DNA of 37,620 nt. Origin: Rhodoluna sp. GTDB lineage: Bacteria > Actinomycetota > Actinomycetes > Actinomycetales > Microbacteriaceae. Positions 2-19,105 of this stretch are shown piece by piece. The stretch is from positions 1 through 37,620 of the forward strand of contig JAURKU010000033.1 of assembly GCA_030831605.1 (NCBI GenBank), written 5' to 3'. Position 1 is the stretch's first letter. Each line of letters starts with the position of its first letter. The position numbers and the translations under genes are program-made. The notes under the pieces are model-generated. The model did not search any database. It saw only the letters and a list, made by a program, of their open reading frames with translations, and was not told where the DNA came from.

Positions 2-235
2 ATCGCTTCGCAGGCATTTATCTATGGCAGAAGTATGGGAGTTCAATTCCACCCAGAGCTAACAGCAGCGGTGCTAAAGGGCTGGCTGGATTGGGGAGGC
101 TTGAGAGAAGTTGGCAATGACGGTCAGGATTCAGATATCATGCTGCAGCAGACTATCGCCGAAGATCCAGCTTCTAGCGAAAGAACTTTCTACCTAATCG
201 ATAATTACTTAGCCAAGGTAGCAAAACTTATCTAA
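2..235 (+). CDS. Class I glutamine amidotransferase, C-terminal fragment (gene cut by window edge)
   Basis: The open frame runs in from the left edge and ends with TAA at 233-235, so only about 77 C-terminal residues are visible. They contain GRSMGVQFHPE, the His-Pro-Glu signature that supplies the His and Glu of the Cys-His-Glu triad in class I glutamine amidotransferases (GMP-synthase-like GATase fold). The internal ATG at 35 lies inside this motif and is not a true start. The catalytic Cys would be upstream, outside the window. Its 3' end overlaps the convergent P450 gene by 8 bases. Such stand-alone domains hydrolyse glutamine or gamma-glutamyl amides; the presence of a second, PuuD-like member 2 kb away makes a gamma-glutamyl role attractive, but that is inference. 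Confidence 0.8.
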   Translation: MASQAFIYGRSMGVQFHPELTAAVLKGWLDWGGLREVGNDGQDSDIMLQQTIAEDPASSERTFYLIDNYLAKVAKLI

Positions 236-1475
236 GGGTTACCTTCACCGGGAAACGCTTGATACCGTTCACAAAATTACTTCTCAGGTGATCTATATCG
301 CCAACTCGTTCCATCTTTGAAATACGAGAGAGTAGATCTTCAAACATAATCCTTACCTCTAGCCTGGCCAGCGAGTTACCCAGACACATATGTGGTCCAC
401 CACGACCAAAGGCCATGTGTTCGTTTGGATTACGAGTCACATCCATCTGGTAGGGATCAGCAAATACTGAACTGTCTCGGTTACCAGAGGCAAACCAAGG
501 AACTACCTTGTCACCTTCTTTGATCTTCACTCCTTGGAATTCAACATCTTTGGTTGCTGTTCTTCTAAAGTGGTAAACCGGTGAAGCTAGACGAATGAAC
601 TCTTCGACTGCCCATGGAATTAGTTCCGGTTTTTCTTGAAGTAAATGCATCTGATCTGGGTTTTCAATCAGGTAGTTCATGGTGTGTGAGATGGTGTGAC
701 GAGTGGTTTCATTACCAGCTACGACAAGTAGCAGGAAGTAGGTATTGAAATCTCGCTCAGATAGCGCTACACCATCAGCTGGCACCTGGTTGATCAGAGT
801 AGAAACTAGGTCTTTGCCGTTGCCGCCCTTGCGTTTTGCAGCAAGGTCCTGACCATAGGCAAATACTTCTAGAGCTGCCGGTGACCTAAATGGAACCAAG
901 CGATACTTCTCGCTCTCTGGGTCATCCAACAGAACATCAGCGTGCTCCGGGTCGGTGTTACCAATCATGCGGTTACCCCACTCGATCAACTTATTAGTGT
1001 CGTGATCTGGAACATCGAGCATTCGAGCTAAAACACGAATCGGGAAATCAGCAGCCACCTCATCGACGAAATCAAATTCACCTTTAGCAAAAGCAGCATC
1101 CAGTGTTGATGCGGTTAGCCCTCTCAGGAACGTTTCGTAACCGGATACCGCCTGTGGGGTGAACTCTCCTTGAAGCAGCCTTCTGAGCGCACGATGGCGT
1201 GCCCCATCGGTTTCCAGCAGCGATCTTCTGGCTTCTTCCTGCTCAGCATCTACTTCCTCCAAATTGGTGAAGTGGGTTGAGGTGAAAGTATCGGGGTCGC
1301 GCAAGATTTTAACGATGTCGTGATAACGGGTGATCGACCAGAAGCCGTGGTTTGGCTTTTCCTCGGTATTCCAGTGCACCGGGGACTCTTCCCGAAGTTT
1401 GTCAAAGACGTGCCAGGGGGCACCTGATTCAAATAGGTCTAAATCAGCAAGGGTTAGCTCGGACAGCGTTGTCAT
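228..1475 (-). CDS. Cytochrome P450 (CYP124/125/linalool-hydroxylase-like)
   Basis: A 415-residue heme monooxygenase. The I-helix oxygen-binding motif AGNETT is at about 253-258, the K-helix ExxR at E292-R295, and the heme loop FGRGGPHMCLG at 356-366 with the cysteine ligand C364. The heme loop has one residue more than the textbook FGxGxHxCxG, as in CYP124/CYP125-type enzymes, which hydroxylate terpenoid or sterol chains. The start at 1475 is chosen because GGAG sits about 9 bases upstream; 18 more codons are open but add an unlikely N-terminus. No membrane anchor is seen, so it should be soluble and need ferredoxin plus reductase, both encoded at 6163-7557. It is divergent from the MarR gene. 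The substrate cannot be read from sequence. Confidence 0.93.
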   Translation of the reverse strand: MTTLSELTLADLDLFESGAPWHVFDKLREESPVHWNTEEKPNHGFWSITRYHDIVKILRDPDTFTSTHFTNLEEVDAEQEEARRSLLETDGARHRALRRLLQGEFTPQAVSGYETFLRGLTASTLDAAFAKGEFDFVDEVAADFPIRVLARMLDVPDHDTNKLIEWGNRMIGNTDPEHADVLLDDPESEKYRLVPFRSPAALEVFAYGQDLAAKRKGGNGKDLVSTLINQVPADGVALSERDFNTYFLLLVVAGNETTRHTISHTMNYLIENPDQMHLLQEKPELIPWAVEEFIRLASPVYHFRRTATKDVEFQGVKIKEGDKVVPWFASGNRDSSVFADPYQMDVTRNPNEHMAFGRGGPHMCLGNSLARLEVRIMFEDLLSRISKMERVGDIDHLRSNFVNGIKRFPVKVTLR

Positions 1476-1533
1476 AATTACTCCGATTGTTTGGATACAA
1501 ATCATTTTCAGATTAGTCCCCAAAATCAAAAAC

Positions 1534-1551
1534 TTAGGGCTTTGTGCCTAA
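1534..1551. promoter_or_regulatory. Candidate operator dyad between P450 and MarR
   Basis: TTAGGGC and GCCTAA form a short imperfect inverted repeat in the 136-base divergent intergenic region. The half-site TAGGGC recurs in the dyad upstream of the aldehyde dehydrogenase operon (2884-2889, with GCCCTA at 2852-2857). This makes it a candidate binding site for the adjacent MarR protein. Only the sequence symmetry is visible; binding is inferred. Confidence 0.35.
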
Positions 1552-1560
1552 AAAGTTATT

Positions 1561-1590
1561 TTGATGCTAACGATTAGTAGACAATAGTTA
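1561..1590 (+). promoter_or_regulatory. Probable promoter of the MarR gene with overlapping palindrome
   Basis: TTGATG (1561-1566) and TAGTTA (1585-1590) are separated by 18 bases and fit a housekeeping -35/-10 pair. The palindrome CTAA-CGA-TTAG (1567-1577) lies in the spacer, where a bound repressor would block polymerase, which suggests autoregulation. A strong Shine-Dalgarno AAGGAGAAG follows before the ATG at 1612. Confidence 0.45.
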
Positions 1591-1611
1591 TACCTATACA
1601 AGGAGAAGATT

Positions 1612-2112
1612 ATGGCCGGACCACACACCCTCGCTGAGACAGAGCGCCAAGTCAATCAAAAACTGGTCCACAAAAACATCAACTTTGAGGCCATGGCGGT
1701 TACCTCCAACCTATTTAGAGCAGCTAACGCGGTTAGAAATCACCTAGAAAGAACAGTGCTCGCCAAGAACGATCTTTCTTGGACCGCCTTTGTTGTGCTC
1801 TGGGTCACCTGGATCTGGGAACCTATTGAAACTAGGCAAATAGCCGAGGAAGGTGGCTTTTCCAAAGCTACTCTTACCGGAGTACTTTCAACTCTTGAAA
1901 AAAGAGGCCTATTAGTTAGAAAAAAGAGCAAAGAAGACGGACGCCTTGTAATTGTTGAACTAACCAGCAAGGGCAGAAAACTTATGGATAGCCTCTTCCC
2001 TGCATTCAACAAACAAGAAACAGCTGTTGCAAATGTTGTTGCCTCATCTAAGCAGGCACAATTAGCGGAACAACTTAGGGCAATAACTAAGTTTGCTGAA
2101 TCGAGAGACTAG
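1612..2112 (+). CDS. MarR-family transcriptional regulator
   Basis: A 166-residue winged-helix DNA-binding protein. The recognition region is around residues 76-100 (TRQIAEEGGFSKATLTGVLSTLEKRGLL), followed by the wing with the family's DGR motif at 109-111 and a C-terminal dimerisation helix. AAGGAGAAG lies just upstream of the ATG. It is divergent from the P450 and convergent with the PuuD-like gene, sharing 4 bases (CTAG) at the two stop codons. MarR proteins typically repress catabolic or efflux genes and release DNA on binding phenolic or other aromatic ligands. This fits a local regulator of the P450 and the ring-cleavage operon, supported by the shared dyad half-sites but not proven. 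Confidence 0.9.
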   Translation: MAGPHTLAETERQVNQKLVHKNINFEAMAVTSNLFRAANAVRNHLERTVLAKNDLSWTAFVVLWVTWIWEPIETRQIAEEGGFSKATLTGVLSTLEKRGLLVRKKSKEDGRLVIVELTSKGRKLMDSLFPAFNKQETAVANVVASSKQAQLAEQLRAITKFAESRD

Positions 2113-2798
2113 TTTTTACGAGCTTCGTTTACTAGTTTCTGGAATAACTCCAACTGCTGAGGGTTCTCTTTGTAGTTATCTTCCGGGTGCCACTGAACGC
2201 CGTAGGCCCATGCTTTTGATGGGATTTTGAATGCTTCGACATGACCTTCGGTAGCAGTGGCTAGAACTTCTAGGCCATCACCTAGTTTTTTGATTGACTG
2301 GTGGTGAAAGCATGAGGACTCAAGGGTTGGTTTGGTAAGTCCCAGACCTTCCATGTCTTTATCGATGGTGATCTGGTGGATAAAGTTTCTATGGTCCTTA
2401 TCCATGTGTTGGACTAGGGATCCGCCCATCAGAACGTTTACAAGCTGGAATCCTCTGCAAATAGCCAGGGTTGGTAGCCCATTATCAAATGCGTATTTAG
2501 CTATTGAGAAATCATTCTCATCTTGGAGATCATCAACACCGTAAAGTTCATCGGTATTTGGCTCTTCGCCATACCACTTGGGATTCACATCCCCACCGCC
2601 TGGGATTAGGACACCTTTGATGCCCTCAAGACGTTCTGCCCAATTCGGGTTTTCGACCGGGAGGAAAGTGATCGGTTCGCCGCCAGCTGCCCAAACGGAT
2701 TCGAGCAGCCTTCTGGAGGAGACCACACCTAGGCTTCTAATTGCTGAGGCGTGCTCAGTAAACCTGCCAACTATGGCTATTCTCGGGCGATTGACCAT
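2109..2798 (-). CDS. Gamma-glutamyl-amide hydrolase, peptidase C26 (PuuD-like)
   Basis: A 229-residue class I GATase-fold hydrolase. GGGDVNP at 67-73 is characteristic of the PuuD/peptidase C26 family. The nucleophile is C114 in the CRGFQ elbow, and the His-Glu pair is H204 and E206 in VQWHPED. E. coli PuuD hydrolyses gamma-glutamyl-GABA; actinobacterial and pseudomonad relatives remove gamma-glutamyl groups from other amines. The start at 2798 has AAGGAG nearby. It is transcribed toward MarR, and its 5' side faces the aldehyde dehydrogenase operon, so both may share the regulatory dyad at 2852-2889. A role in removing glutamate from an amine-derived intermediate is inferred from family and context. 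Confidence 0.88.
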   Translation of the reverse strand: MVNRPRIAIVGRFTEHASAIRSLGVVSSRRLLESVWAAGGEPITFLPVENPNWAERLEGIKGVLIPGGGDVNPKWYGEEPNTDELYGVDDLQDENDFSIAKYAFDNGLPTLAICRGFQLVNVLMGGSLVQHMDKDHRNFIHQITIDKDMEGLGLTKPTLESSCFHHQSIKKLGDGLEVLATATEGHVEAFKIPSKAWAYGVQWHPEDNYKENPQQLELFQKLVNEARKN

Positions 2799-2851
2799 TG
2801 CTGCTCCTTGCCGAATTGTTATGAAAGCATTGGGCTCTGTGTATTAAGTAT

Positions 2852-2889
2852 GCCCTAGTCTAAATCATTAGTATCCTAATGAATAGGGC
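2852..2889. promoter_or_regulatory. Nested inverted repeats upstream of the ring-cleavage operon
   Basis: An inner perfect dyad CATTAG-TATC-CTAATG (2866-2881) is nested inside an outer pair GCCCTA (2852-2857) and TAGGGC (2884-2889). The element sits in the 112-base divergent gap between the PuuD-like gene and the aldehyde dehydrogenase. It ends about 20 bases before the TTG start at 2911, so it would overlap the promoter or leader. It is a good operator candidate for the MarR protein at 1612; a role as an RNA hairpin is an alternative. Confidence 0.5.
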
Positions 2890-2910
2890 TAATAGTGAGG
2901 AACGAAGGCG

Positions 2911-4374
2911 TTGAACACCGTAAACGTTGTTGGGCTTGAGATTGATACCCGCCATTACATCAATGGCCAGCGGGTAGCCTCTGCTGAAACATTTACCAAC
3001 ACTTCCCCAATTGACGGCTCTTTCCTAGGTGAGATCTCTAGAGGCAGCCAGACTGAAGTTGATCTAGCAGTGCAGGCTGCAAAATCCGCTTTTCCGGCTT
3101 GGGCTGCTCTCGGCCCTAAGGGTAGAGGCGAAAAACTACTAAAGCTAGCCGAGTTAGTTGAAGAAAACATCGAGTCACTTGCTCAGTTAGAAACAATGGA
3201 TAATGGATCGCTACTTCGATCTCACCGCAGAGGGGTAATGCCTAGAGTTGCACTCAACATTCGCTTTTTTGCCGAATGGGCAATCAATGAACTACAGCAC
3301 CCAGAGTTTGAAACCCGTGGACACACAAACAAAATCTCCTGGGATCCATCAGGTGTTGCAGCTCTTATTACACCTTGGAATGCACCGCTAATGCTTGCTA
3401 CTTGGAAGATAGGTCCTGCTCTGGCTGCAGGTGACACAGTAATCCTGAAGCCTGCTGAATGGACGCCGCTATCTGCATCATTCTTTGCTGATCTTACCAA
3501 GCAAGCTGGTATACCTGATGGTGTCTTCAATGTGGTTCAAGGTTATGGTAAAGAAGCAGGAGCCGCACTTGTTGCTCATGCTGGCATATCGAGAATTTCA
3601 TTTACTGGTTCGGTTCCAACCGCAAAGATTATTGCTAAATCAGCTGCCGATAATCTAACACCGGTTTCATTTGAACTAGGTGGTAAATCACCCTGTGTTG
3701 TTCTAGAGGATGCTGATTTAGATTTAGCAGTTGAACTTGCAGTTGAGCAGTATGACAATGCTGGCCAGGTTTGTTTATCGGGAACCAGAATCTTGGTTCA
3801 TGAGAGTATCGCTGATGAGTTCGCAATCAAGTTCAAAGAAAAGGCAGCCAAGATCATTCAAGGTGACCCAAGAGAAGAAGCAACTCAAATAGGTCCGCAG
3901 ATTCACCAGGTTCACTTTGAAAGAGTTAAAGGCTTTGTTGATAGAGCTAAAGAATCTGGTGCGAATATCGTCATGGGCGGCGAACCTAATTCAGAGCTAG
4001 GTGGTCTATATTTCAGACCAACACTTGTGATGAACCCGGATCCTGAATCAGAGATTGTCACCTCAGAGGTATTTGGGCCGGTGCTTTGCATGCAGACATT
4101 TAGTTCTGATGAAGAGGCAATTGAGATGGCTAACAGCACAGAGTTTGGTCTAGCAGCTGTTTTGGTTTCAGGTAACAAAGACAGGGCAGAGAAGGTTGCC
4201 AAGGAACTGGTTGCTGGAACCATCTGGGTTAACTGCTTCTTTGTTAGAGACTTACGAGCCCCTTTTGGTGGCTCCAAGAAGTCCGGTATCGGCCGTGAGG
4301 GCGGTAACTGGTCATTTGATTTTTATGCCGATGTGAAAAACACGGTATTTTCTCCAAATGGATGGAAGGAATAA
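2911..4374 (+). CDS. Aldehyde dehydrogenase, HpaE-like (carboxymethyl-hydroxymuconate semialdehyde dehydrogenase)
   Basis: A 487-residue NAD(P)-dependent aldehyde dehydrogenase with a full catalytic set: N157 in PWNAP, FTGS at 231-234 in the coenzyme fold, general base E255 in FELGGKS, and nucleophile C288 in GQVCLSGT. The C-terminal VRDLRAPFGGSKKSGIGREGG is typical of HpaE and 2-aminomuconate/2-hydroxymuconate semialdehyde dehydrogenases. HpaE oxidises the ring-cleavage product of homoprotocatechuate. Translation starts at TTG 2911, preceded by GAGG about 10 bases upstream. It leads a plus-strand operon and is followed after 3 bases by the HpaD-like gene, so it would act directly after that dioxygenase. 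Oxidation of another aldehyde cannot be excluded. Confidence 0.88.
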   Translation: MNTVNVVGLEIDTRHYINGQRVASAETFTNTSPIDGSFLGEISRGSQTEVDLAVQAAKSAFPAWAALGPKGRGEKLLKLAELVEENIESLAQLETMDNGSLLRSHRRGVMPRVALNIRFFAEWAINELQHPEFETRGHTNKISWDPSGVAALITPWNAPLMLATWKIGPALAAGDTVILKPAEWTPLSASFFADLTKQAGIPDGVFNVVQGYGKEAGAALVAHAGISRISFTGSVPTAKIIAKSAADNLTPVSFELGGKSPCVVLEDADLDLAVELAVEQYDNAGQVCLSGTRILVHESIADEFAIKFKEKAAKIIQGDPREEATQIGPQIHQVHFERVKGFVDRAKESGANIVMGGEPNSELGGLYFRPTLVMNPDPESEIVTSEVFGPVLCMQTFSSDEEAIEMANSTEFGLAAVLVSGNKDRAEKVAKELVAGTIWVNCFFVRDLRAPFGGSKKSGIGREGGNWSFDFYADVKNTVFSPNGWKE

Positions 4375-4377
4375 ATA

Positions 4378-5289
4378 ATGGGTGAAGTAGTAGGAGCAGC
4401 ACTTTTGGCACACGTGCCAACAATCATGTTGCCTGAGGCGGTTAGATATGACCTAAACGAAGGTAAGGAACTAACCCTAGTGCCAGGTCTAAAGCAGCTT
4501 CGTAAGGATGTCTTTGAGACTCTCGATTACGACACCGTCGTCGTTCTAGACAGCCACTGGGCAACTACCGTCGAGTTTGTGATTACCTCAGCTGCCGAAA
4601 GATCAGGGCTATTCACCTCTGAAGAGTTGCCTCGAGGTATGTCGCAAATTCCTTACGCCATCAAGGGCGACCCAGAACTGGCTAACTCACTTCGTAACTA
4701 CGATGAGAAGAACGGCACCTGGATTACACCGATTGCCGATCCTCACCTACCGATTTTCTACGCAACCGTAAACCTCTGGCACTACCTAGGTCGTGGCTTA
4801 GATGAAAAGCGCTGGATTTCTATGTCGGTTTGCCAGACCGGAACCCACGAGGATTTCCTTCGTGCTGGTCGTGCTTTAGGTGAAGCAATTAGAGATAGCG
4901 ACCGAAAAGTAATCCTGCTTGCCTCCGGTGCTCTTTCACACACCTTCTATAAGCTTCGCGATCTTAGAAAGCACGAAGCTTCTGATCCTAAACACATTTA
5001 CTCAGATCTAGCTCGTGAGATGGATTACGAAAGATTAGAGTGGATGAAAAATGGTGAGCACGGCAAGATTCTAGAAACAATGCCGGAATTCTCAAAGGTA
5101 AAGCCAGAGGCTAACTTTTATCACTGGCTAGCGATGGCCGGAGCAACCGGTGAAGAACTAAACACCGCTAAAGGTGTTTTGTATTCTGAATACGAGAACT
5201 CGATTGGTACTGGTCAGGTGCACGTTTGGTTCTCAAAGCCTGAAGGCGGCTTCCCGAGACCTAAGGACTTGGTACTAACTCGTGACTGA
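4378..5289 (+). CDS. Class III extradiol ring-cleavage dioxygenase, HpaD/HpcB-like
   Basis: A 303-residue member of the LigB-fold extradiol dioxygenases. By comparison with E. coli HpcB, the iron ligands are H12 (LLAHVP), H60 (LDSHW) and E271 (YSEYENSIGTGQV); H188 in SGALSHTF is the likely acid-base histidine. The GTGQV motif near the C-terminus is also shared. HpcB cleaves 3,4-dihydroxyphenylacetate (homoprotocatechuate) between C2 and C3 to a muconic semialdehyde, the substrate of the preceding HpaE-like enzyme. The gene overlaps the next by 8 bases, indicating translational coupling. The exact catechol is uncertain: protocatechuate-, aminophenol- and catecholamine-type substrates are possible in this superfamily. 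Confidence 0.85.
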   Translation: MGEVVGAALLAHVPTIMLPEAVRYDLNEGKELTLVPGLKQLRKDVFETLDYDTVVVLDSHWATTVEFVITSAAERSGLFTSEELPRGMSQIPYAIKGDPELANSLRNYDEKNGTWITPIADPHLPIFYATVNLWHYLGRGLDEKRWISMSVCQTGTHEDFLRAGRALGEAIRDSDRKVILLASGALSHTFYKLRDLRKHEASDPKHIYSDLAREMDYERLEWMKNGEHGKILETMPEFSKVKPEANFYHWLAMAGATGEELNTAKGVLYSEYENSIGTGQVHVWFSKPEGGFPRPKDLVLTRD

Positions 5290-6160
5290 ATATAGAAGAA
5301 TCCTGCTTGATGGCTATCCAACCCAGGCAGTCAGAGATGGTGAAAATCTGGTTTCCGGTGACGGCAGAGTAGTTGCTATCAAAGATGCAGTGCACCTACC
5401 TCCAGTTGAGCCAACCAAGATTATTGCAGTGCATCTAAACTATGACTCGAGAACCAAAGAGTTCATGACCAAGCTGCCTCCAGCACCTACCTATTTTCAC
5501 AAGCCGATTACTGCATTGAACTCGCACCTAGGTAATGTGGTTAGGCCTCATGGATTGAAGTGGTTGAACTACGAAGGTGAAATTGTAATCGTGATTGGTA
5601 AGACCTGTCGCAACATCTCCCCTTCGGAGGCTGGCGAATACATCGCCGGATACACCATCGGTAATGACTATGGCCTGCATGATTTTAGGGATACTGATGC
5701 TGGATCGATGCTTAGGGTGAAAGGTTCCGACACTCTTGCTCCAATTGGACCAGGGCTAGTTACCGACTGGGATTTCAACAACAAGTTCATTAGAACCTAT
5801 GTCAATGGCGAACTAAAGCAGGACGATAACACCGACAACATGGAGTGGGATATGCACTACCTAGTTGCCGATATCGCTAGAACCATCACGCTTGTCCCAG
5901 GGGATATCTTGTTTTCAGGCACCCCAGCTAATTCAAGGCCGGTAAACCCAGGCGATGTGGTTGAAGTTGAGGTAGAGGGCTTAGGCAAGCTGACCAATTA
6001 CATTGTCGAAGGACCAACCGGGATTAGAACCGATGTTGGAGCTCAGCCATCTTCATCTGAAGAGGTAGTTTCAACCGCTTTAGGTGGCGACTGGGAATTT
6101 AGAGGTATTAGAACCCCGTCTAAAGATTTATACCCTTCGACCGTAGAAGAAAAGGAATAA
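5282..6160 (+). CDS. FAH-family hydrolase/isomerase-decarboxylase, HpaG-like
   Basis: A 292-residue single FAH domain. The metal-binding signature is E98 and E100 in NYEGEIVIVIG and D129 in GNDYGLHDFR; the conserved VKGSD (146-150) and SGTPA loop follow. In the homoprotocatechuate pathway HpaG decarboxylates and isomerises the product of HpaE; other FAH enzymes hydrolyse acylpyruvates. E. coli HpaG is a two-domain fusion, whereas this protein has one domain. The GTG start at 5282 lies inside the dioxygenase gene, in the context CGTGACTGA, and a ferredoxin gene follows after 2 bases. No hydratase (HpaH), aldolase (HpaI) or isomerase (HpaF) is in the window. Confidence 0.85.
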   Translation: MTEYRRILLDGYPTQAVRDGENLVSGDGRVVAIKDAVHLPPVEPTKIIAVHLNYDSRTKEFMTKLPPAPTYFHKPITALNSHLGNVVRPHGLKWLNYEGEIVIVIGKTCRNISPSEAGEYIAGYTIGNDYGLHDFRDTDAGSMLRVKGSDTLAPIGPGLVTDWDFNNKFIRTYVNGELKQDDNTDNMEWDMHYLVADIARTITLVPGDILFSGTPANSRPVNPGDVVEVEVEGLGKLTNYIVEGPTGIRTDVGAQPSSSEEVVSTALGGDWEFRGIRTPSKDLYPSTVEEKE

Positions 6161-6162
6161 CC

Positions 6163-6354
6163 ATGATCAAGATCGAAGTTGATATGACCAAGTGCCAGCA
6201 CTACGGTCAGTGTGTCTTTGAAGCACCAAATATCTTCCGTCTAAACAATGACGACAAACTGGAATACACAGCCGTTGCAGATGATTCAGAACGCGCCAAC
6301 GTTGAGGCTGCTGTTGATGTCTGCCCGATGCAGGCCATTCGCATCGTCGAATAA
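6163..6354 (+). CDS. P450-type [3Fe-4S] ferredoxin with CxxYxxC motif
   Basis: A 63-residue small acidic ferredoxin. Cysteines are C11, C17 and C54 (VCPM); the position that would hold the fourth cluster ligand is Y14 (CQHYGQC), so a [3Fe-4S] cluster is expected. Actinobacterial ferredoxins of this CxxXxxC class commonly deliver electrons to P450s. The gene lies between the FAH-family gene and the ferredoxin reductase. It is therefore the likely electron carrier for the P450 at 228-1475, and perhaps also for the P450 at 36266-37555, which has no nearby partner. Confidence 0.92.
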   Translation: MIKIEVDMTKCQHYGQCVFEAPNIFRLNNDDKLEYTAVADDSERANVEAAVDVCPMQAIRIVE

Positions 6355-6357
6355 TTC

Positions 6358-7557
6358 ATGCATCATCCGGTAGTTATCGTCGGAGCCTCAATGGGGGGTT
6401 TGCGTTGCGCTGAGGCGCTACGCCGATTCGGCTATACCGGAGCGATTACCGTAATTGGTGAGGAATCTTGGAAACCTTATAACCGTCCTCCGTTATCTAA
6501 AGAAGTCCTAGCCAAAGAAGTTTCCCACCAAGCCGTTGCCTTTGAAGAAAGATCAGCAACTGCAGATGTGAATTGGATTCTTGGAACTAAAGCAGTGTCG
6601 CTGGATGTTGAACACAACACAGTAACTGACAGCGATGGTCAAACACACAGGTATTCGGCACTAGTGGTGGCAACAGGTTTGCGACCAAAGAGAGTAGTTG
6701 TTGAGAATTCAGAGCTAGCAAACCGTTTTGCACTTAGAACTCTAGATGACGCCATGGCACTTAGAGAACAGCTACAACCGGGTAGAAACGTTGTGATTGT
6801 TGGTGGTGGATTCATCGGCTGCGAGGTTGCCGCAACAGCAACTAAACTCGGGGCGAATGTCACTGTGATTCACAATGCTAGTCACCCGATGCTTCGGCAA
6901 CTAGGTGATGAACTTGCCAGCCAAATGCAACTGCGCCATGAAGCAGAAGGGGTTAGATTTCTACTCAAGCGTTCAGTGGATGACCTAATTGGTGAAACTT
7001 CAATAACCGGCGTCAAAGTTGATGACGGTGAGATTCTCGACTGTGATGTTTTGGTGGAAGCCGTTGGGTCGCTACCTAATGTTGAGTGGCTATCCAATAA
7101 CAACATCGACCGTAACGATGGTGTGCTAGTCGACTCAGCTATGCGAGTTACACGCAAAGATGGTAGTCCAATCAAGAACGTCTTTGCCATCGGTGATATT
7201 GCCAGATTCGCCAATCCCCTATTTGATGGGGTGCCACGAAGAGTCGAACACTGGAACATGCCAACAGAAACTGCGAAACGGGCAGCTTCAGTAATTGCTG
7301 CGATGTTGACCGAAGCTCCTAGTTACCCGGGCATTCTGGATGATGATTTCAAGCCGCTACCCTCATTCTGGTCTGACCAGTATGAGAATCACCTTCTAGC
7401 CTTCGGCCTTACCTCGCTTGCCGATAGGGCTGAGTTAGCGCAAGGCGATATCGGTGGGGATTGCGTTTTTGAGTATTACCGTGAAAACCAGCTAGTTGGT
7501 GTTTGCGGTATTGGTATGCGAGCAGCCGTGCAGAGTTATCGAAGTAAGTTTATTTAG
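6358..7557 (+). CDS. NAD(P)H:ferredoxin reductase, FAD-dependent (putidaredoxin-reductase-like)
   Basis: A 399-residue two-dinucleotide-fold flavoprotein. The FAD-binding turn is GASMGG (9-14), the NAD(P) fold is VVIVGGGFIGCE with GGGFIG at 149-154, and the second FAD motif is VFAIGD (275-280). The C-terminal part matches the reductase domain of rhodocoxin and putidaredoxin reductases. It should pass electrons from NAD(P)H to the adjacent ferredoxin and on to P450. Only 3 bases separate it from the ferredoxin stop and no strong ribosome-binding site is seen, so translation is probably coupled. The ATG start puts the FAD motif at the expected distance. Confidence 0.93.
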   Translation: MHHPVVIVGASMGGLRCAEALRRFGYTGAITVIGEESWKPYNRPPLSKEVLAKEVSHQAVAFEERSATADVNWILGTKAVSLDVEHNTVTDSDGQTHRYSALVVATGLRPKRVVVENSELANRFALRTLDDAMALREQLQPGRNVVIVGGGFIGCEVAATATKLGANVTVIHNASHPMLRQLGDELASQMQLRHEAEGVRFLLKRSVDDLIGETSITGVKVDDGEILDCDVLVEAVGSLPNVEWLSNNNIDRNDGVLVDSAMRVTRKDGSPIKNVFAIGDIARFANPLFDGVPRRVEHWNMPTETAKRAASVIAAMLTEAPSYPGILDDDFKPLPSFWSDQYENHLLAFGLTSLADRAELAQGDIGGDCVFEYYRENQLVGVCGIGMRAAVQSYRSKFI

Positions 7558-7566
7558 GAGATAAAA

Positions 7567-7815
7567 ATGTCAAATGAATTCGACCTGGATGTCAATTTCG
7601 AAGATGCTGAGCCAGATCTATCTAGCTTTAGCAAAGAGCAGTTAGCGGCAGAAATAAAGAAATTACCAGAAGCGATTTCCAAGGTTGCTTACGGCCTAAT
7701 CATTGAAGAGCGCACGATGAGTGATGTTTCCCAGGAACTAGGCATTAGGCAGGCAGAACTTGTTACTAGGCTTCACCGCGCCAAGCAGATTATTGCTTCT
7801 AATCTTTCCCAGTAA
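7567..7815 (+). CDS. Small stand-alone sigma-70 region 4-like protein
   Basis: An 82-residue protein with an acidic N-terminus (about 1-25) followed by a segment resembling sigma-70 region 4: LPEAISKVAYGLIIEERTMSDVSQELGIR and RLHRAKQIIASNL. This follows the usual LP..R.v..L......s..EIA..LGis...V..RLhRAr pattern, with the helix-turn-helix near 50-75. Region 2, needed to bind core polymerase and open the -10, is absent. AGGAG lies between the reductase stop and this ATG, so it is the last gene of the catabolic operon. It overlaps the convergent DUF6421-like gene by 17 bases. It may be a DNA-binding or sigma-accessory regulator, or only a structural resemblance; no function is established. Confidence 0.75.
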   Translation: MSNEFDLDVNFEDAEPDLSSFSKEQLAAEIKKLPEAISKVAYGLIIEERTMSDVSQELGIRQAELVTRLHRAKQIIASNLSQ

Positions 7816-13765: not shown

Positions 13766-14913
13766 CAGGATTTTCTCCTTCGCAGCGTTACCGCAAGTGA
13801 ATCCAAAAGCAGCGTATCTTTGACATTTCTGTCCATCCGGTATCTCACCTGCTGAATCTTTTCAATCGCATGAATAGCCTGAGCCTGGCTAATATCTTTT
13901 GCCAGCGATCTTATTTCCCCATCCAAATCGGGGTTGATCAGCTTTTGACCCGAGCCCAGTTGAATTGCCAAGACATCGCGGTAGAGCCCCATTAGGTCAA
14001 CAAAAATTCTGTCCAGTCCATCACGCTTTGATCTGGTTGATCGCTTTTTTTGCGCATCCTCAAGCTTTTTTATCTGCGAGCGAATCGAGGGAGTCAGCTT
14101 AGTGTCTTCAGTAATACCCAAGCGAGCCATCATTTCAGCCCGCTCCTGTTCGTCAAGCTCTCCAGTTAGCTGCTGCCCATCACTCTCGGCAAGTTTTAGT
14201 AAAACCTCCGAGGCTGAAATAGCAGAAGGTAGGTCGGTGATTGCCAGCACAACCTCAAGCACTTTTGATCTTCGTTCACGGGCTTGAAGATTAGTTGCCA
14301 GTCTTCTTGCCATGCCGACATGGCTTTGCGCCTGCGCTGCTGAGGTTAACGCTAGGTTTTCTGAAACGGAGTATTTTTCGACAAGTAATCTTGCAACTTC
14401 TTCAACACTTGGCACTTTGAGCATGATGCGACGAACGCGAGAGCGAATTGTTGGCAGTAAATCGGATTCGCTTGGTGCGCAGAGCATCCAGATAGTTCCT
14501 CTAGGTGGTTCCTCCAGCGATTTCAAAAGCAGATTGCTGGTGCGCTCTGCCATACGATCGGCATCTTCAACAATCATGATTCGATAGTTAGCCAGTGCCG
14601 GCATCTGCTCTGACTTTTCAATAAACTCGCTTACTTCATCAATGCTGATTTGTACCCGCTCTGTGTTCAGAACCTGAACATCGGGATGATTTCCAACTCT
14701 GACCATCGAGCAAGCGTTGCATTCAGCGCAACCGCCGGCAGGACAAACCAGCGCAGCAGCGAAGGCAAAAGCCAATTCACTTCTGCCAGATCCCGGTGGG
14801 CCGGTGAAAAGCCAAGCATGATGAATCTGATTGGATTTTTCGATTTCACGCAAGAGCTCGGCGACAGCCTCAGGCTGTGAGATAACCTCTCGAAAAACTC
14901 TTGGAGCAACCAT
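13765..14913 (-). CDS. holB: DNA polymerase III delta' subunit
   Basis: A 382-residue clamp-loader AAA+ protein. The Walker A region is GPPGSGRS (38-45), with Arg in place of the ATP-binding Lys, consistent with the non-hydrolysing delta' role. A zinc module C57-C62-C65-C68 follows, then the LLKSLEEPP segment and a Sensor-1-like RSRVRRI region. Delta' joins tau/gamma and delta to load the sliding clamp. It lies 4 bases after tmk and is coupled to the downstream hydrolase. The tmk-holB pairing is common, and the topA-tmk-holB set matches actinobacterial synteny. Confidence 0.93.
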   Translation of the reverse strand: MVAPRVFREVISQPEAVAELLREIEKSNQIHHAWLFTGPPGSGRSELAFAFAAALVCPAGGCAECNACSMVRVGNHPDVQVLNTERVQISIDEVSEFIEKSEQMPALANYRIMIVEDADRMAERTSNLLLKSLEEPPRGTIWMLCAPSESDLLPTIRSRVRRIMLKVPSVEEVARLLVEKYSVSENLALTSAAQAQSHVGMARRLATNLQARERRSKVLEVVLAITDLPSAISASEVLLKLAESDGQQLTGELDEQERAEMMARLGITEDTKLTPSIRSQIKKLEDAQKKRSTRSKRDGLDRIFVDLMGLYRDVLAIQLGSGQKLINPDLDGEIRSLAKDISQAQAIHAIEKIQQVRYRMDRNVKDTLLLDSLAVTLRRRKS

Positions 14914-14917
14914 AAAT

Positions 14918-15535
14918 TTAGATTAGCCCCGAAACGCGAGTCCTAATAATCTCCTGCATTTGTTCAACATCGGCTGCTGCATCAACCACCAAGAAACGAT
15001 CTGGCTCAGCGCTAGCTAGCGACAGATAAGCCTGTCGAGCCCGCTCAAAAAACTCAATCTTCTCGCTCTCTAGGCGATCCGGTTCCGTACCCGTTTTATT
15101 TCGTCTGGATCTGGCGACATCGGCCGGAAGATCAAGTAGGACGGTTAGATCGGGTAGCAATCCACCTACTGCCCAGAGCGAGAGATTGCGCACCTCATCC
15201 ATAGACATTTCGCGACCAGCACCCTGATAGGCCACCGATGAATCAAAATAGCGATCGGTGATTACAATTTCGCCGCGTTCTAAAGCAGGTCTAATCTTGC
15301 TAGCCACGTGGTGAGCTCGATCAGCAGCAAATAGCGCTGCTTCTGCCCTAGGTGCTAATTCACCGCGGTGGTGTAAAAGAATTTTACGAATTTCAACCCC
15401 AACCTCGGTTCCGCCTGGCTCAAGTGTTCTAATCACCGTTTTACCAAGGCCTACTAAATACTTCTCCAGCAGATCGGCCTGTGTCGACTTACCGACACCG
15501 TCGATCCCCTCAAAAGAAATAAATAAGCCGCTCAA
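14918..15535 (-). CDS. tmk: Thymidylate kinase
   Basis: A 205-residue kinase phosphorylating dTMP to dTDP for DNA synthesis. The P-loop is FEGIDGVGKST (8-18), and the DR motif ITDRYFDSSVAYQG binds substrate; the LID region RRNKTGTEPDRLE follows. The length is typical. The start is TTG 15535, immediately after the topA stop (TAATTG), with AAAGG in the topA 3' end acting as ribosome-binding site. This gives a tight topA-tmk-holB operon. Confidence 0.96.
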   Translation of the reverse strand: MSGLFISFEGIDGVGKSTQADLLEKYLVGLGKTVIRTLEPGGTEVGVEIRKILLHHRGELAPRAEAALFAADRAHHVASKIRPALERGEIVITDRYFDSSVAYQGAGREMSMDEVRNLSLWAVGGLLPDLTVLLDLPADVARSRRNKTGTEPDRLESEKIEFFERARQAYLSLASAEPDRFLVVDAAADVEQMQEIIRTRVSGLI

Positions 15536-18235
15536 TTACTTTGCCTTTCGGGTCGAGCCTTTTTTGACAGTTCGAGCCGGCGCGACACCTCGACGAGATT
15601 TAGAAACCTTTGGAGCAGGTTGGCCAGGTTCCAGGCCTAACTTCTCGCGCCTGATTGCCAAGAGCTCGAATGCTCTTTCAGCAGTTAGTTCATCCAGTGG
15701 CTCGTCTTTAGGCACGGTGGCATTTATTGCTCCGTCGGTAACATATAAACCAAATTGTCCGCTCTTTGCCACCACATTGGTCTTTGCCGCCGGGTCTTCA
15801 CCAAATTCTTTTAGCGGTGTTGCCGCGGTAACTCGACCACGAAGTTTCGGTTGAGCAAACAGCGCAAGAGTCCCTTCCAAATCAATTTCAAAAATCTGAT
15901 CTTCGGATTGTAGGCTGCGTGACTCCTTACCTTTCAAAAGGTAAGGTCCAAACTTTCCGTTTTGTGCGGTAATGTCTAATCCTGATTCCGGATCCTGGCC
16001 GACAACTCTAGGCATCGACAACAACTTAAGTGCGGTTTCGAGATCCATTGCTTCTACCGACATAGTTTTGAATAACGATGCGGTTCTAGGTTTCTTGGCA
16101 GCTGGATCATCTAGTAGTACATAAGGACCATAACGGCCATCCTTGAACAGGATATTAAATCCAGTTTCCGGATCAACGCCGAGAATACGGTCTTTGATAA
16201 TTGGTGCTTCGATTAATTCATGAGCTTTTTCCAAAGTCAGTTCATCAGGAGCTAGATTCTCTGGAATGTTGATGATCCTTCTGCCATTTTCATCAGCACC
16301 CTCAGCTCCAGGTTCGATATAGATCTCTAGGTATGGGCCATACTTACCGGTGCGCAAGGTTATTCCGTCACCGAGATCAATCGAGTTCAATGCCTTGGCA
16401 TCAATCTCACCGATGTTATCGACAATTGAGTGCAGCCCCGGGTTATTCTCCGAACCGAAGTAAAACTCTTTGAGCCATTCGCTTCGGTTCATAGTGCCTT
16501 CGGCTATCTCATCCAGATCCTCTTCCATAGCCGCTGTAAAGGCGTAGTCAACAAGCCGCTCAACGTTCTCCTCGAGGAAACGAATAACGGTAAAGGCGAT
16601 CCACTCTGGGACTAAAGCCTGACCGCGCTTAGTCACAAAGCCCTTATTTTGAATGTTGGAAATAATCGAGGCGTAAGTAGATGGTCTACCGATACCGTCT
16701 TCCTCCAATGCCTTTACCAAGCTGGCTTCGGTAAATCTTGCCGGTGGGCTAGTTTGGTGACCCTTGGCGTTCACTTCAGAAACCTTGAGGCTCTGTCCAA
16801 CCGTTAGATTTGGAAGCTTACTTTCCTTCTGTTCAGATTCTTCTTCATCTTTTTCTGACTCGTCCTGGCTTTCCTCGTAAGCTGCCATGAAACCGCGGAA
16901 CGTAACAACAGTTCCACTGGCGCTGAATTCCGCACGGTCACCGTTGGCCAGTGGGTGAACTGCAATTTTTGCAGTAGTAGTTGATACCTTGGCATCTTGC
17001 ATCTGGCTAGCAACAGTTCGCTTCCAGATCAGATCGTAAAGTTCAAATGCTCGGCCAGAAAGTTCCCCGGCAACTTCAGAAGGCTTACGGAAAACCTCCC
17101 CGGCTGGCCTAATGGCCTCGTGGGCTTCCTGAGCATTTTTATTCTTACCTTGGTAAACCCGAGGGGCCGCTGAGACATAATCTTCACCAAACATCTCTTT
17201 AGCCTGTGAACGAGCTGCATTGATAGCTTGAGTGGAAAGTGTCGGTGAGTCAGTTCTCATGTAGGTGATGTAACCCTCTTGGTAGAGCGATTGGGCAACA
17301 TCCATGGTTTGCTTGGCCGACATTCTCAATTTACGAGAAGCCTCCTGCTGCAGTGTTGAAGTAGTAAATGGTGCTGCAGGCTTTCTAGTTGAAGGTTTAG
17401 CTTCAACTGAAATTACTTCAATCTTCGGGCCTGTTGACTTTACTGCTTCAGCGAGAGCTTCTGCTTTCGCTTCATCAAGTAATAGAACCTGTGCGACTAG
17501 TTCACCTTTTTCGTTAAATGAATCTCCAGATGCGATGCGCTGTCCATTGTAAGTAAATAGCTTTGCTTCAAATTTAGGTTCACCATCCACCTGAGTATCA
17601 AAAAGTGCCTTGATGTCAAAATAATTAGCTGAAACGAAAGCCATGCGCTCACGTTCGCGCTCAACAATCAATCGCACCGCTGGCGATTGAACGCGGCCGG
17701 CACTTAGGCCTCTTGCCACCTTGCGCCACAGCAATGGCGATATTTCGTAACCGTAGAGTCGGTCAACAACTCTTCTAGTCTCCTGGGCTTGAACCAAGTT
17801 GTCGTCGATCGCTCGAGTGTTTTTGACAGCCTCCTGGATCGCTTCCTTCGTGATTTCGTGGAAGACCATTCGGTGCACGGGAATCTTAGGTTTGAGCACA
17901 TCTAGCAGATGCCAGGCAATAGCCTCACCCTCGCGATCCTCATCTGTAGCCAGGTAAAGTTCATCGGCGTCCTTGAGAGCAGCCTTAAGCTCGGTTACCG
18001 TCTTGTTCTTACCTGGGGAAATGGCATAGTAGGGCTTGAAATCATCATCGACGTCAATGGCAAAGCGGCCGATGCTGCCTTTCTTCTTCAGTTCAGGCGG
18101 CAGTTCCTTTAGATCAATCAAGTCTCGGATGTGACCGACCGAGGCTAGAACCTTGAATTCTGAGCCTAAATACTTAGCTATTGTCTTAGCCTTTGCTGGT
18201 GACTCAACGATGACCAGTTTTGAAGCTTCAGCCAC
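15536..18235 (-). CDS. topA: DNA topoisomerase I (type IA)
   Basis: An 899-residue enzyme that relaxes negative supercoils. The Toprim domain starts with VIVESPAKAKTI and contains the acidic DEDREGEAI (98-106). The catalytic tyrosine is Y325 in GYITYMRTDS. The C-terminal third has repeated GKFGPYL/GRYGPYV/GQFGLYV modules, as in actinobacterial TopA proteins that use Toprim-like repeats instead of zinc fingers, and it ends in a Lys/Arg-rich tail (about 870-899) that aids processivity. Translation starts at GTG 18235, with AGGAG that overlaps the stop codon of the upstream TadE-like gene. Confidence 0.97.
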   Translation of the reverse strand: MAEASKLVIVESPAKAKTIAKYLGSEFKVLASVGHIRDLIDLKELPPELKKKGSIGRFAIDVDDDFKPYYAISPGKNKTVTELKAALKDADELYLATDEDREGEAIAWHLLDVLKPKIPVHRMVFHEITKEAIQEAVKNTRAIDDNLVQAQETRRVVDRLYGYEISPLLWRKVARGLSAGRVQSPAVRLIVERERERMAFVSANYFDIKALFDTQVDGEPKFEAKLFTYNGQRIASGDSFNEKGELVAQVLLLDEAKAEALAEAVKSTGPKIEVISVEAKPSTRKPAAPFTTSTLQQEASRKLRMSAKQTMDVAQSLYQEGYITYMRTDSPTLSTQAINAARSQAKEMFGEDYVSAAPRVYQGKNKNAQEAHEAIRPAGEVFRKPSEVAGELSGRAFELYDLIWKRTVASQMQDAKVSTTTAKIAVHPLANGDRAEFSASGTVVTFRGFMAAYEESQDESEKDEEESEQKESKLPNLTVGQSLKVSEVNAKGHQTSPPARFTEASLVKALEEDGIGRPSTYASIISNIQNKGFVTKRGQALVPEWIAFTVIRFLEENVERLVDYAFTAAMEEDLDEIAEGTMNRSEWLKEFYFGSENNPGLHSIVDNIGEIDAKALNSIDLGDGITLRTGKYGPYLEIYIEPGAEGADENGRRIINIPENLAPDELTLEKAHELIEAPIIKDRILGVDPETGFNILFKDGRYGPYVLLDDPAAKKPRTASLFKTMSVEAMDLETALKLLSMPRVVGQDPESGLDITAQNGKFGPYLLKGKESRSLQSEDQIFEIDLEGTLALFAQPKLRGRVTAATPLKEFGEDPAAKTNVVAKSGQFGLYVTDGAINATVPKDEPLDELTAERAFELLAIRREKLGLEPGQPAPKVSKSRRGVAPARTVKKGSTRKAK

Positions 18236-18965: not shown

Positions 18966-19093
18966 AGCATCGCCTTTACTTCTTCTGATCGCAGAATACT
19001 TAGCAACAATCCGGCAAAACCCACCGCTGCCAGCATGATAATTACATACTCTGCGGTAGAAGCGCCCTCTTCGCCTGAAAAGCGTTGGATCAT
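18920..19093 (-). CDS. DUF4244 pilin-like small membrane protein
   Basis: A 57-residue gene, easily missed because of its size. It reads MIQRFSGEEGASTAEYVIIM and continues with a hydrophobic helix (AAVGFAGLLLSIL) and a short amphipathic tail ending in SNS. The EEGASTAEY motif before the helix is the Flp/DUF4244 prepilin-like signature. GGAG sits 9 bases before the ATG. It corresponds in position to Rv3656c between the T2SF gene and the TadE gene, and likely forms the major subunit of a Tad-type appendage. Its 3' third overlaps the proposed TadE start in another frame. Confidence 0.85.
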   Translation of the reverse strand: MIQRFSGEEGASTAEYVIIMLAAVGFAGLLLSILRSEEVKAMLLELIRGAISTSSNS

Positions 19094-19105
19094 TTATGTC
19101 TCCTT

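Follow-up and report, generated by a model that had tools for sequence, protein, structure and literature searches.

A possible gamma-glutamyl-capped arylethylamine pathway in a P450 and ring-cleavage gene cluster of Microbacteriaceae and Streptomyces

Genes for a cytochrome P450 system, for extradiol ring cleavage and for gamma-glutamyl hydrolysis stand side by side at one end of a Rhodoluna contig. Do they serve a single pathway, and if so, for which substrate? An initial annotation of the window (the whole 37,620-nt stretch analysed, at the left end of contig C22) had placed these three modules within 8 kb, and Pfam searches, together with comparison with relatives, confirmed all of the named genes at positions 2–7815. 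The features are as follows:

2..235, plus strand: class I glutamine-amidotransferase-fold protein (GATase), C-terminal 77 aa, cut by the contig end; assigned by homology to relatives
228..1475, minus strand: cytochrome P450 (Pfam p450, 87 bits)
1485..1506, no strand: operator-like palindrome 1, P450/MarR intergenic region (21.2 bits, held-out matrix)
1554..1575, no strand: operator-like palindrome 2, P450/MarR intergenic region (20.1 bits, held-out matrix)
1612..2112, plus strand: HpaR-like regulator of the MarR family, a candidate for binding the palindrome (Pfam MarR; HpaR model 62 bits, 121 needed)
2109..2798, minus strand: PuuD-like gamma-glutamyl hydrolase, Peptidase C26 (Pfam Peptidase_C26/GATase, 137 bits)
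2863..2884, no strand: operator-like palindrome 3, PuuD/ALDH intergenic region, with the ALDH start 26 nt further on (25.8 bits)
2911..4374, plus strand: aldehyde dehydrogenase (ALDH; Pfam Aldedh)
4378..5289, plus strand: LigB-type extradiol dioxygenase, in a clade of its own adjoining HpaD (Pfam LigB)
5282..6160, plus strand: FAH-fold isomerase/decarboxylase, like the C-domain of HpaG (Pfam FAA_hydrolase, 182 bits)
6163..6354, plus strand: single-cluster ferredoxin with three Cys (Pfam Fer4_15, Fer4_13)
6358..7557, plus strand: NAD(P)H:ferredoxin reductase (Pfam Pyr_redox_2 and Reductase_C)
7567..7815, plus strand: 82-aa ORF, here the last gene of the operon, with an HTH-looking C-terminus

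The ALDH, LigB, FAH, ferredoxin and reductase genes and the small ORF share one strand and are spaced by –8 to +9 nt. The annotated pair of amidotransferase-fold genes, one of them PuuD-like, is borne out by Pfam, motifs and relatives. The PuuD-like protein keeps the CRGxQ and QWHPE motifs in alignment with E. coli PuuD, including the expected Cys, His and Glu, and scores below the NCBI PuuD equivalog cut-off (67 of 266 bits); a full-length relative of the truncated protein (L032) has 235 aa and a Pfam GATase match. This GATase, which adjoins the ligase in relatives, may be a proof-reading (AtdA2-like) hydrolase separate from PuuD. The proposed likeness of the ring-cleavage trio to HpaE, HpaD and HpaG holds at the level of family resemblance, but all three proteins miss the NCBI cut-offs (HpaE 524/638, HpaD 126/316, HpaG model TIGR02303 207/276 bits). 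The ALDH, predicted to oxidise the ring-cleavage semialdehyde, is ~40% identical to HpaE and equally so to E. coli PuuC. Within the LigB clade, H12, H60, H188 and E244, which we take to be the iron ligands (two His, one Glu) and the catalytic His, are kept in 159–160 of 160 rows (duplicates not removed), and the window protein combines the Pfam LigB match with these conserved positions, as expected of a LigB-type enzyme. An apparent loss of the HpaD-conserved basic residues K9, H38, H68 and H119 in the clade rests on four HpaD sequences and was not used as evidence. The three Cys of the ferredoxin (C-x5-C...CP) fit the annotated [3Fe-4S] type. The best solved match of the P450 among 60 listed is PDB 8vxi (chain named CYP125MRCA, 378 bits). 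The 82-aa ORF, which adjoins the reductase gene in many relatives, gave no Pfam match.

A GlnA-like ligase and a permease had been predicted to the left of base 1. The cluster is cut there, in a Microbacteriaceae-like MAG that is 81% complete, and the ligase is missing from the window because the contig ends, which is a matter of assembly. When the MAG DNA was searched with the left half of a relative's cluster (6.1 kb), nothing matched beyond the contig end and a single stretch of 39 bp; ligase, permease and ADC genes were not found in this 81% complete MAG. In relatives, the part cut off here consists of a glutamine-synthetase-like (GS-like) ligase, an enzyme of the acetoacetate decarboxylase (ADC) superfamily and an APC permease, with ligase and permease directly left of the GATase gene, in agreement with the prediction.

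We compared 63 non-redundant LigB-clade loci with at least 7.5 kb on both sides. Among these loci, which are related to each other and whose counts are not independent, we found ALDH and FAH genes in 61 each, the ligase in 60, the P450 in 57, ADC and MarR in 55 each, the reductase in 54, the ferredoxin in 53, the GATase in 51, the APC permease and PuuD in 44 each, and the small ORF in 19. PuuD or the GATase is present in 59/63, while PuuD is missing near LigB in 19/63. LigB co-diverges with the ligase (r = 0.75, n = 76), the P450 (r = 0.80, n = 70) and ADC (r = 0.77, n = 65), against r ≤ 0.27 in 300 permutations. Because the gene order is found again in relatives and across further families of the class, and because the genes co-diverge, the annotated grouping is real and not due to chance. 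HpaF, HpaH, HpaI and PuuB had no match in any of the 63 loci, and HpaB had one in a single locus. In contrast, five hpa-type control loci carry HpaF (3/5), HpaH (4/5) and HpaI (3/5) and lack ligase, P450, PuuD and ADC. The initial annotation had sought HpaH and HpaI in the missing left part, which these counts contradict; an ADC-superfamily enzyme probably takes the place of both. It had also reasoned that an hpa-type operon never accompanied by P450 or amidotransferases would speak against the grouping, and the P450 and ligase counts are the opposite of that.

The ligases of relatives are 30% identical to PuuA. At the ammonium site, GlnA Y179 is replaced by V, A or I and E327 by L, M or T in 86 of 86 sequences, and the glutamate, ATP and metal positions are kept in 85–86 of 86. 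Keeping the GS catalytic domain and these other positions but not the ammonium-site residues, the relatives' proteins are candidate GoaS-type ligases; a like criterion was applied to GlnA4 (PMC6529630). A further replacement at D50/S53 proved alignment-dependent in a larger set and was dropped. The closest solved structures to the relatives' ADC enzyme are MppR (162 bits), 6eej/4zbo (145 bits) and 5upb (82 bits). We take 6eej/4zbo to be Sbi00515 and 5upb to be Swit_4259, and all of them to belong to the aldolase/dehydratase-type branch of the superfamily, with the Lys of the motif presumably the Schiff-base Lys. The Lys motif is kept in 71/71 sequences of relatives, which thereby have the features of that branch. 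MppR, Sbi00515 and Swit_4259 share fold and Lys motif with the cluster enzyme, but their own pathway roles differ, and the activity in the cluster is a prediction.

A shared 22-bp palindrome ties the transcription units together. With a matrix trained on other genomes, three strong sites were found in the window, all of them in the cluster, and palindrome 3 is the best-scoring site in the whole 37.6 kb; a Markov null of the window gave a site of at least 20 bits in 1 of 200 simulations. In relatives, the palindrome lies at the divergent promoters of held-out loci and stands before the genes for the ligase, the permease, the P450 and ring cleavage; a site of at least 20 bits is present in 60/63 loci (training loci included), and the Novosphingobium locus (L048) has no palindrome. 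The E. coli hpa control (L196) carries a single strong site (22.1 bits) between hpaR and hpaG, so the motif alone does not define the cluster; top scores in the other controls were 14.8 (L202), 11.1 (L198), 8.0 (L201) and 7.2 bits (L197). Recurrence in Streptomyces and at E. coli hpaR/hpaG points to the HpaR-like MarR as the predicted binder of a putative HpaR-type operator. The exact core ATTAG..CTAAT occurred, among 26 sequences, only in the window and L051, and a degenerate 22-mer was used instead.

Further genes accompany the cluster in relatives. A decarboxylase lies in or beside it at 13/63 loci (four polyamine-type neighbours excluded). Operon-borne decarboxylases occupy three different positions, and that of S. 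lunaelactis is tyrosine-decarboxylase-like; the cluster-linked proteins match PF00282, and their best NCBIfam models score far below cut-off. The PLPDC_L108-type decarboxylases (L094, L107, L108, L109) look like polyamine synthesis and were left out of the substrate argument: the ORF beside the decarboxylase in L108, L094 and L109 reads at its N-terminus as agmatine deiminase, L107 was excluded by analogy with these three, and the MAG's own copy adjoins ORFs that appear to resemble agmatine deiminase and N-carbamoylputrescine amidase. The tyrosine-decarboxylase-like gene of the MAG lies away from the cluster and has no palindrome site. In relatives, three flanking ALDHs score highest with the PuuC model (524, 568 and 554 of 850 bits), and PuuC-like genes above our set threshold occur at 10/63 loci, all with PuuC scores under the equivalog cut-off. 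In S. lunaelactis, such an ALDH gene overlaps PuuD, and three palindrome copies common to both separate this operon from an ALDH-LigB-FAH-decarboxylase operon; in S. canus, permease, PuuC-like ALDH and PuuD are consecutive. Six relatives have a 4-aminobutyraldehyde-type dehydrogenase directly after the small ORF. Those of L033, L091, L096, L099 and L125 (623–659 bits) exceed the PRK13473 cut-off of 615 bits, and that of L079, cut by a contig end, scores 586. The MAG encodes GabT and an aminobutyraldehyde-type dehydrogenase elsewhere.

From gene content, conservation, the shared palindrome and the loss of the ligase's ammonium site, all read from sequence, we infer a substrate, an order of steps, an ADC reaction and a binding regulator. 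On balance, we lean towards a single regulon that serves the use of an arylethylamine as growth substrate, of which the window holds the right-hand part; tyramine is the likeliest amine, with dopamine and 3-methoxytyramine as close alternatives. An APC permease would import the amine, or a decarboxylase would make it from an amino acid, and the GS-like ligase would add a gamma-glutamate cap. The P450 with ferredoxin and reductase would produce a catechol, LigB would open its ring, the HpaE-like ALDH would oxidise the semialdehyde and the FAH enzyme would decarboxylate the product. The ADC-like enzyme would then hydrate and cleave, yielding pyruvate and gamma-glutamyl-4-aminobutanal, a Puu intermediate, which a PuuC-like or aminobutyraldehyde dehydrogenase would convert to gamma-glutamyl-GABA and PuuD would split into glutamate and GABA. 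The amidotransferase adjoining the ligase would probably reverse excess glutamylation, as reported of its counterpart for aniline, and the HpaR-like MarR would switch the regulon via the palindrome. More tentatively, the amine may stay capped through the P450 and extradiol steps, with an ADC-type aldolase for HpaH/HpaI and one HpaR-type palindrome from small-genome Microbacteriaceae to Streptomyces. If the cap persists through ring opening, gamma-glutamyl-4-aminobutanal is expected, and decarboxylases, PuuC-like or 4-aminobutyraldehyde dehydrogenases and PuuD are thus predicted; all are seen in relatives, where the decarboxylases are similar to those for aromatic amino acids. A single FAH protein would have to cover the job of two in Acinetobacter. 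This counts against the overall reading, as do decarboxylases at only 13/63 and PuuC-like genes at only 10/63 loci, the 19/63 loci lacking PuuD near LigB, and the failure to find ligase, permease and ADC in the MAG.

The initial annotation had joined glutamylation, P450 oxidation and extradiol cleavage in one pathway, as we do, but had placed uncapping before ring opening; removal at the end, as gamma-glutamyl-GABA, is likelier. With early uncapping, PuuD or the GATase would free dopamine for cleavage by LigB, and 4-aminobutanal would go to GABA. Such an order would suit the two amidotransferase-fold genes and the dehydrogenase after the operon in six relatives. However, the S. lunaelactis and S. 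canus arrangements place a PuuC-like ALDH with PuuD, the E. coli member of the PuuD family acts on gamma-glutamyl-GABA, and free 4-aminobutanal cyclises, which makes early uncapping unlikely.

A tyramine-type arylethylamine is also more likely than an aniline-type amine that is glutamylated, hydroxylated in ortho position by the P450 and, once freed as a 2-aminophenol, opened by an AmnB-like LigB. Ligase and GATase do resemble the aniline system (PMC4539516, PMC11335346), and AmnB-type chains are the next PDB matches of LigB. Yet these reach at most 40 bits versus 79 bits for 3,4-dihydroxyphenylacetate dioxygenase, the Pfam scan, which covered eight window proteins, found no Rieske oxygenase subunit, and an aniline would leave no place for decarboxylases and PuuC-like or aminobutyraldehyde dehydrogenases; we regard this substrate as improbable. 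We give still less credence to a diverged 4-hydroxyphenylacetate/homoprotocatechuate operon lying by chance beside a polyamine/monoamine utilisation operon. Chance proximity would accommodate the HpaR, HpaE, HpaD and HpaG likeness, the matching E. coli palindrome and PuuA/C/D-like genes typical of polyamine use, but not the ligase accompanying LigB in 60/63 loci where HpaF, HpaH, HpaI and PuuB are all missing, the palindrome before genes of both kinds, or the five hpa-type loci without ligase, P450, PuuD and ADC.

The cluster resembles the hpa/hpc meta pathway in its one-operon trio, HpaR-like MarR, similar palindrome and logic of semialdehyde oxidation and decarboxylation, and differs in having P450, ligase and mostly an ADC-like enzyme, with HpaB in one locus and HpaF, HpaH and HpaI in none. 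With the E. coli Puu putrescine pathway it shares a GS-like ligase, a PuuD-like hydrolase, a permease, in some members a PuuC-like ALDH, and gamma-glutamyl-4-aminobutanal as predicted common intermediate; unlike Puu, it has no PuuB in the 63 loci and would be entered by ring cleavage. Mycobacterial morpholine/piperidine systems also have P450, ferredoxin and reductase near a GS-like gene, but to our knowledge no ring-cleavage trio. The aniline and 1-naphthylamine systems (AtdA, TdnQ, NpaA; GoaS ligases) likewise set a GS-like ligase beside a GAT-like hydrolase, followed by an oxygenase (PMC11335346, PMC4539516); theirs are Rieske-type dioxygenases, whereas the cluster has P450, LigB, ADC, PuuD and decarboxylases. 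We found no description of such a cluster in open-access papers, and the gene set is apparently widespread and undescribed. If correct, the proposed pathway would give tyramine- and dopamine-type amines a second aerobic route, unlike the known amine-oxidase plus Hpa route, and would explain ~12 kb of P450 and ring-cleavage genes in genomes of ~1–1.6 Mb. It would also provide an ADC-like family, known chiefly from its structures, with a physiological role, and name the substrate of a widespread group of GS-like ligases. Cultured carriers would allow a direct test of this reading.

We also looked for the palindrome elsewhere. Nine off-cluster stretches picked by pattern match score 14.5–19.6 bits, so that only sites above ~20 bits stand out. 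A genome-wide IUPAC pattern (3 mismatches, 8 genomes) was at control level in several: pattern and reversed pattern gave 22 versus 24 matches in G000 and 28 versus 36 in G056, but 21 versus 7 in G008. With counts at control level in several genomes, we do not claim weak extra regulon sites. A site of 18.7 bits before an aminobutyraldehyde dehydrogenase gene in G014 and one of 19.6 bits before a PEPCK-like ORF in G062 are merely suggestive.

In a metagenome-assembled genome (MAG; 80.9% complete, 1.14 Mb), the window forms the left end of contig C22. Closely related genomes are listed under such names as Rhodoluna sp., Microbacteriaceae bacterium or Micrococcales bacterium, and from their titles we infer a freshwater habitat. 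Pfam and NCBI model scans recovered every gene that the initial annotation had assigned to an island of P450, ring-cleavage and gamma-glutamyl hydrolase genes. The cluster is laid out in the window as follows:

2-235, amidotransferase-fold gene (GAT), end only
about 1.5 kb, P450 and MarR genes, divergent pair
2.8 kb, PuuD and aldehyde dehydrogenase (ALDH) genes, divergent pair
2911-7815, one strand, operon ALDH-LigB-FAH (HpaG-like)-ferredoxin (Fd)-ferredoxin reductase (FdR)-small ORF (82 aa), with intergenic gaps of -8 to +9 nt

In related loci (e.g. L032, L033, L050, L051 and L114), the order continues leftward with GAT, a glutamine-synthetase (GS)-like ligase, a gene of the acetoacetate-decarboxylase superfamily (ADC) and an APC permease. 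A ligase and a permease, which the initial annotation had proposed to look for left of base 1, are thus found there in relatives. A DNA search of the MAG with the 6.1-kb left-half stretch of L032 matched only the contig end (73% identity, 271 bp) and one 39-bp stretch. Hence, at the sensitivity of a DNA search, the ligase, ADC and APC genes are not in the MAG assembly.

LigB relatives (E-value 1e-20 or better) were found in 35 genomes of a 198-genome set of relatives and, at the level of the class, in 30 out of 394, the MAG itself included in both counts. A wider contig set holds 377 stretches encoding a LigB relative, of which the best 80 were kept; cultured carriers among these include Microcella alkaliphila AC4r and Aurantimicrobium minutum. 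The pooled loci, one per LigB sequence, numbered 112 at ≥45% identity; genes within 10 kb of LigB were counted for the 63 that extend 7.5 kb or more in both directions, and the other 49, being too short, were dropped. ALDH and FAH are each present in 61 of the 63 loci, the ligase in 60, P450 in 57, ADC and MarR in 55 each, FdR in 54, Fd in 53, GAT in 51, and APC and PuuD in 44 each. The ligase expected by the initial annotation therefore does accompany LigB, but the HpaF, HpaH and HpaI genes considered with it do not: protein queries for these and for PuuB matched none of the 63 loci. PuuD or GAT occurs in 59/63 loci and, given the P450 count, the opposite scenario of hpa-type operons never joined by a P450 or amidotransferases was not seen for this LigB clade. 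Five hpa-/hpc-type control loci (L196, L197, L198, L201 and L202; some incomplete) gave no match to ligase, P450, PuuD or ADC. The loci without PuuD or GAT are L167, L042, L048 (Novosphingobium) and L188. L188 (LigB 52% identity) has none of the cluster genes and carries an HpaB-like gene instead, the single HpaB match among the 63 loci (PuuE matched three). This LigB relative near an HpaB-like monooxygenase possibly represents a different pathway or an ancestral setting. Another exception, L045, lacks ALDH, FAH and ADC.

Pairwise divergence of LigB correlates with that of P450 (r 0.80), ADC (0.77), ligase (0.75), ALDH (0.75), FAH (0.59) and PuuD (0.55), against at most 0.27 in 300 permutations. 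As far as divergence can tell, this shows that the cluster genes travel as a unit; it is not evidence of function, and shared descent alone would give the same result.

The ligases of the relatives contain a GS catalytic domain (Pfam) and all score below the cut-offs of the NCBIfam glutamine-synthetase and gamma-glutamylputrescine-synthetase models. GlnA residues Y179 and E327 are replaced in 86/86 distinct ligases, of which 85-86 retain each of the remaining functional positions examined; the GlnA4 paper uses these residues, among others, in its argument (PMC6529630). The best solved relatives of ADC, which keeps its Lys motif in 71/71 sequences, are 4jm3 (MppR, 162 bits), 6eej/4zbo (145) and 5upb (82). 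We take 6eej/4zbo to be Sbi00515 and 5upb to be Swit_4259, and presume that these two and MppR are aldolase/dehydratase-type enzymes, not decarboxylases. Among solved chains, LigB comes closest to a 3,4-dihydroxyphenylacetate dioxygenase (79 bits), followed by 2-aminophenol-type dioxygenases (≤40 bits). PuuD keeps the nucleophile and HPE motifs and does not reach the PuuD equivalog cut-off. A GAT-like enzyme of aniline degraders reportedly hydrolyses gamma-glutamylanilide back to aniline, avoiding toxicity (PMC11335346, PMC4539516); by analogy, the two cluster hydrolases, GAT and PuuD, may have different jobs. Acinetobacter is described as using OPETD plus HHDDI, whereas the cluster has one FAH enzyme; CHM isomerisation is reportedly also spontaneous (PMC12718150 for both).

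Homoprotocatechuate-pathway chemistry turns a ring that bears a CH2-COOH side chain into pyruvate and succinic semialdehyde (steps from PMC12718150, carbon mapping our own). The same chemistry on a CH2-CH2-NH-glutamyl side chain would yield pyruvate and gamma-glutamyl-4-aminobutanal. By E. coli annotation, PuuC acts on the latter and PuuD on what PuuC makes of it, and the proposed meta pathway would converge on the Puu pathway. The substrate would be an arylethylamine, which the P450 may either hydroxylate or demethylate. With this end product, an arylethylamine-making decarboxylase and a PuuC-like dehydrogenase were therefore predicted before the test. Among the 63 loci, 17 have a decarboxylase and 10 a PuuC-like gene (>400 bits); a small ORF is present in 19 and an LLM-type oxidoreductase in 15. 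PuuC is the best model for ALDHs of S. canus (L047; 568/850 bits), L040 (524/850) and S. lunaelactis (L046; ALDH2, 554/850), all below cut-off. The S. canus ALDH is 49% identical to E. coli PuuC versus 41% to HpaE, and that of L040 46% versus 39%. In six relatives an ALDH lies on the same strand as the small ORF, overlapping it by 1 nt or starting within 4 nt after it. Of these, the ALDHs of L033, L091, L096, L099 and L125 are aminobutyraldehyde dehydrogenases (623-659 bits, NCBI cut-off 615), and that of L079, cut by a contig end, scores 586 bits with this model. The MAG's aminobutyraldehyde dehydrogenase (681 bits) lies away from the cluster, and GabT exceeds its cut-off in the MAG, as in 10/10 genomes searched.

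Four of the 17 decarboxylase loci were dropped as resembling polyamine synthesis. Among the remaining 13, nine decarboxylases are adjacent and co-directional (L046, L087, L111, L115, L119, L120, L122, L169, L179), three lie on the opposite strand 1.4 kb from the small ORF (L033, L099, L125), and one is 6.4 kb off (L176). The S. lunaelactis enzyme (PF00282) follows FAH; its best models are tyrosine decarboxylases, far below cut-off, and its best PDB matches 5hsi and 6ebn. A MAG decarboxylase 50% identical to it lies away from the cluster. Salinibacterium has a second type, flanked by GAT and P450, and in L180 this type comes after FAH. In L161-L164, L169, L172, L175 and L179 a third type is the gene immediately behind the small ORF or FdR; its best PDB match (225 bits) is 4obu, presumably a Ruminococcus tryptophan decarboxylase. 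Beside the decarboxylase of L161, two neighbouring genes (14541-16976) read like acetylpolyamine/histone-deacetylase-fold hydrolases. The S. canus cluster has two P450s; folate one-carbon genes beside it (24181-27041; purU, methylene-THF dehydrogenase, aminomethyltransferase family) may mean that the amine used there is methoxylated or methylated. Full-text searches of an open-access library turned up no account of a cluster like this. All of its parts are of known kinds, and what appears new is their combination and the meta-to-Puu convergence.

Reading of intergenic sequences, the window's among them, suggested a palindrome near ATCGTT-N8-AACGAT. A matrix from 84 training sites of 19 relatives, a set that leaves out the window and the loci most closely related to it, has the consensus AATCGTTtGgATcCaAACGATT. 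Its three best sites in the 37,620-bp window are:

2863, 25.8 bits
1485, 21.2 bits
1554, 20.1 bits

The next best scores 5.9, and only 1/200 Markov simulations of the window gave any site ≥20 bits. In 15/15 other held-out loci the best site adjoins a cluster gene. Recurrent positions, not all in every locus, are APC/ADC, GS/GAT, P450/MarR and PuuD/ALDH. Counting training loci, the best site reaches ≥20 bits in 60/63 loci; L188 and Novosphingobium L048 stay below 15, the latter without a palindrome by this matrix (best score 5.6). Strong sites also occur in other families of the class. S. canus has sites of 20.3 and 17.3 bits. S. lunaelactis has palindromes of up to 29.0 bits before GS/MarR, ADC and APC, and three between its PuuC-PuuD and ALDH-LigB-FAH-decarboxylase operons. 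L044, a 12.4-kb contig outside the 63, has LigB without other cluster genes, yet a 30.6-bit palindrome lies just upstream of LigB. Same-genome stretches without core cluster genes (L189-L191, L211-L213) score 1.9-12.1 at best, and the MAG's off-cluster decarboxylase and aminobutyraldehyde dehydrogenase lack a strong site. Nine off-cluster stretches picked by genome-wide pattern match reach 14.5-19.6 bits; therefore, sites below ~20 bits are no evidence by themselves.

The E. coli hpa control L196 has one strong site (22.1 bits, 7199-7220; second best 9.1), in the gap from the end of hpaR (6975) to the start of hpaG (7247). Since HpaR reportedly regulates the hpa-meta operon (PMC7180172), and the cluster MarR is HpaR-like by NCBI model scan, the palindrome probably serves as an HpaR-type operator, with the cluster's own MarR as putative binder. 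The E. coli site suggests that this putative operator is common to different phyla.

An 18.6-bit palindrome-like site in L192 (genome G056; 5525-6965) lies 18 nt before an aspartate ammonia-lyase gene adjoining the permease, and L050 and L051 have similar ones; the regulon may include nitrogen release. A 20.6-bit site in S. lunaelactis (2341-2362) lies upstream of an M14 zinc carboxypeptidase. Among 60 listed solved P450s, the window P450 (228-1475) scores highest with two CYP125MRCA chains (378 and 376 bits; others ≤248). A second P450-like ORF of the window (36266-37555, minus strand) is closest in our reference set to the cluster P450 (31% identity). Genes at 18591-20758 (minus strand) in this small genome appear to encode components of a Tad/type IV pilus (secretion ATPase, TadC-like, pilin-like).
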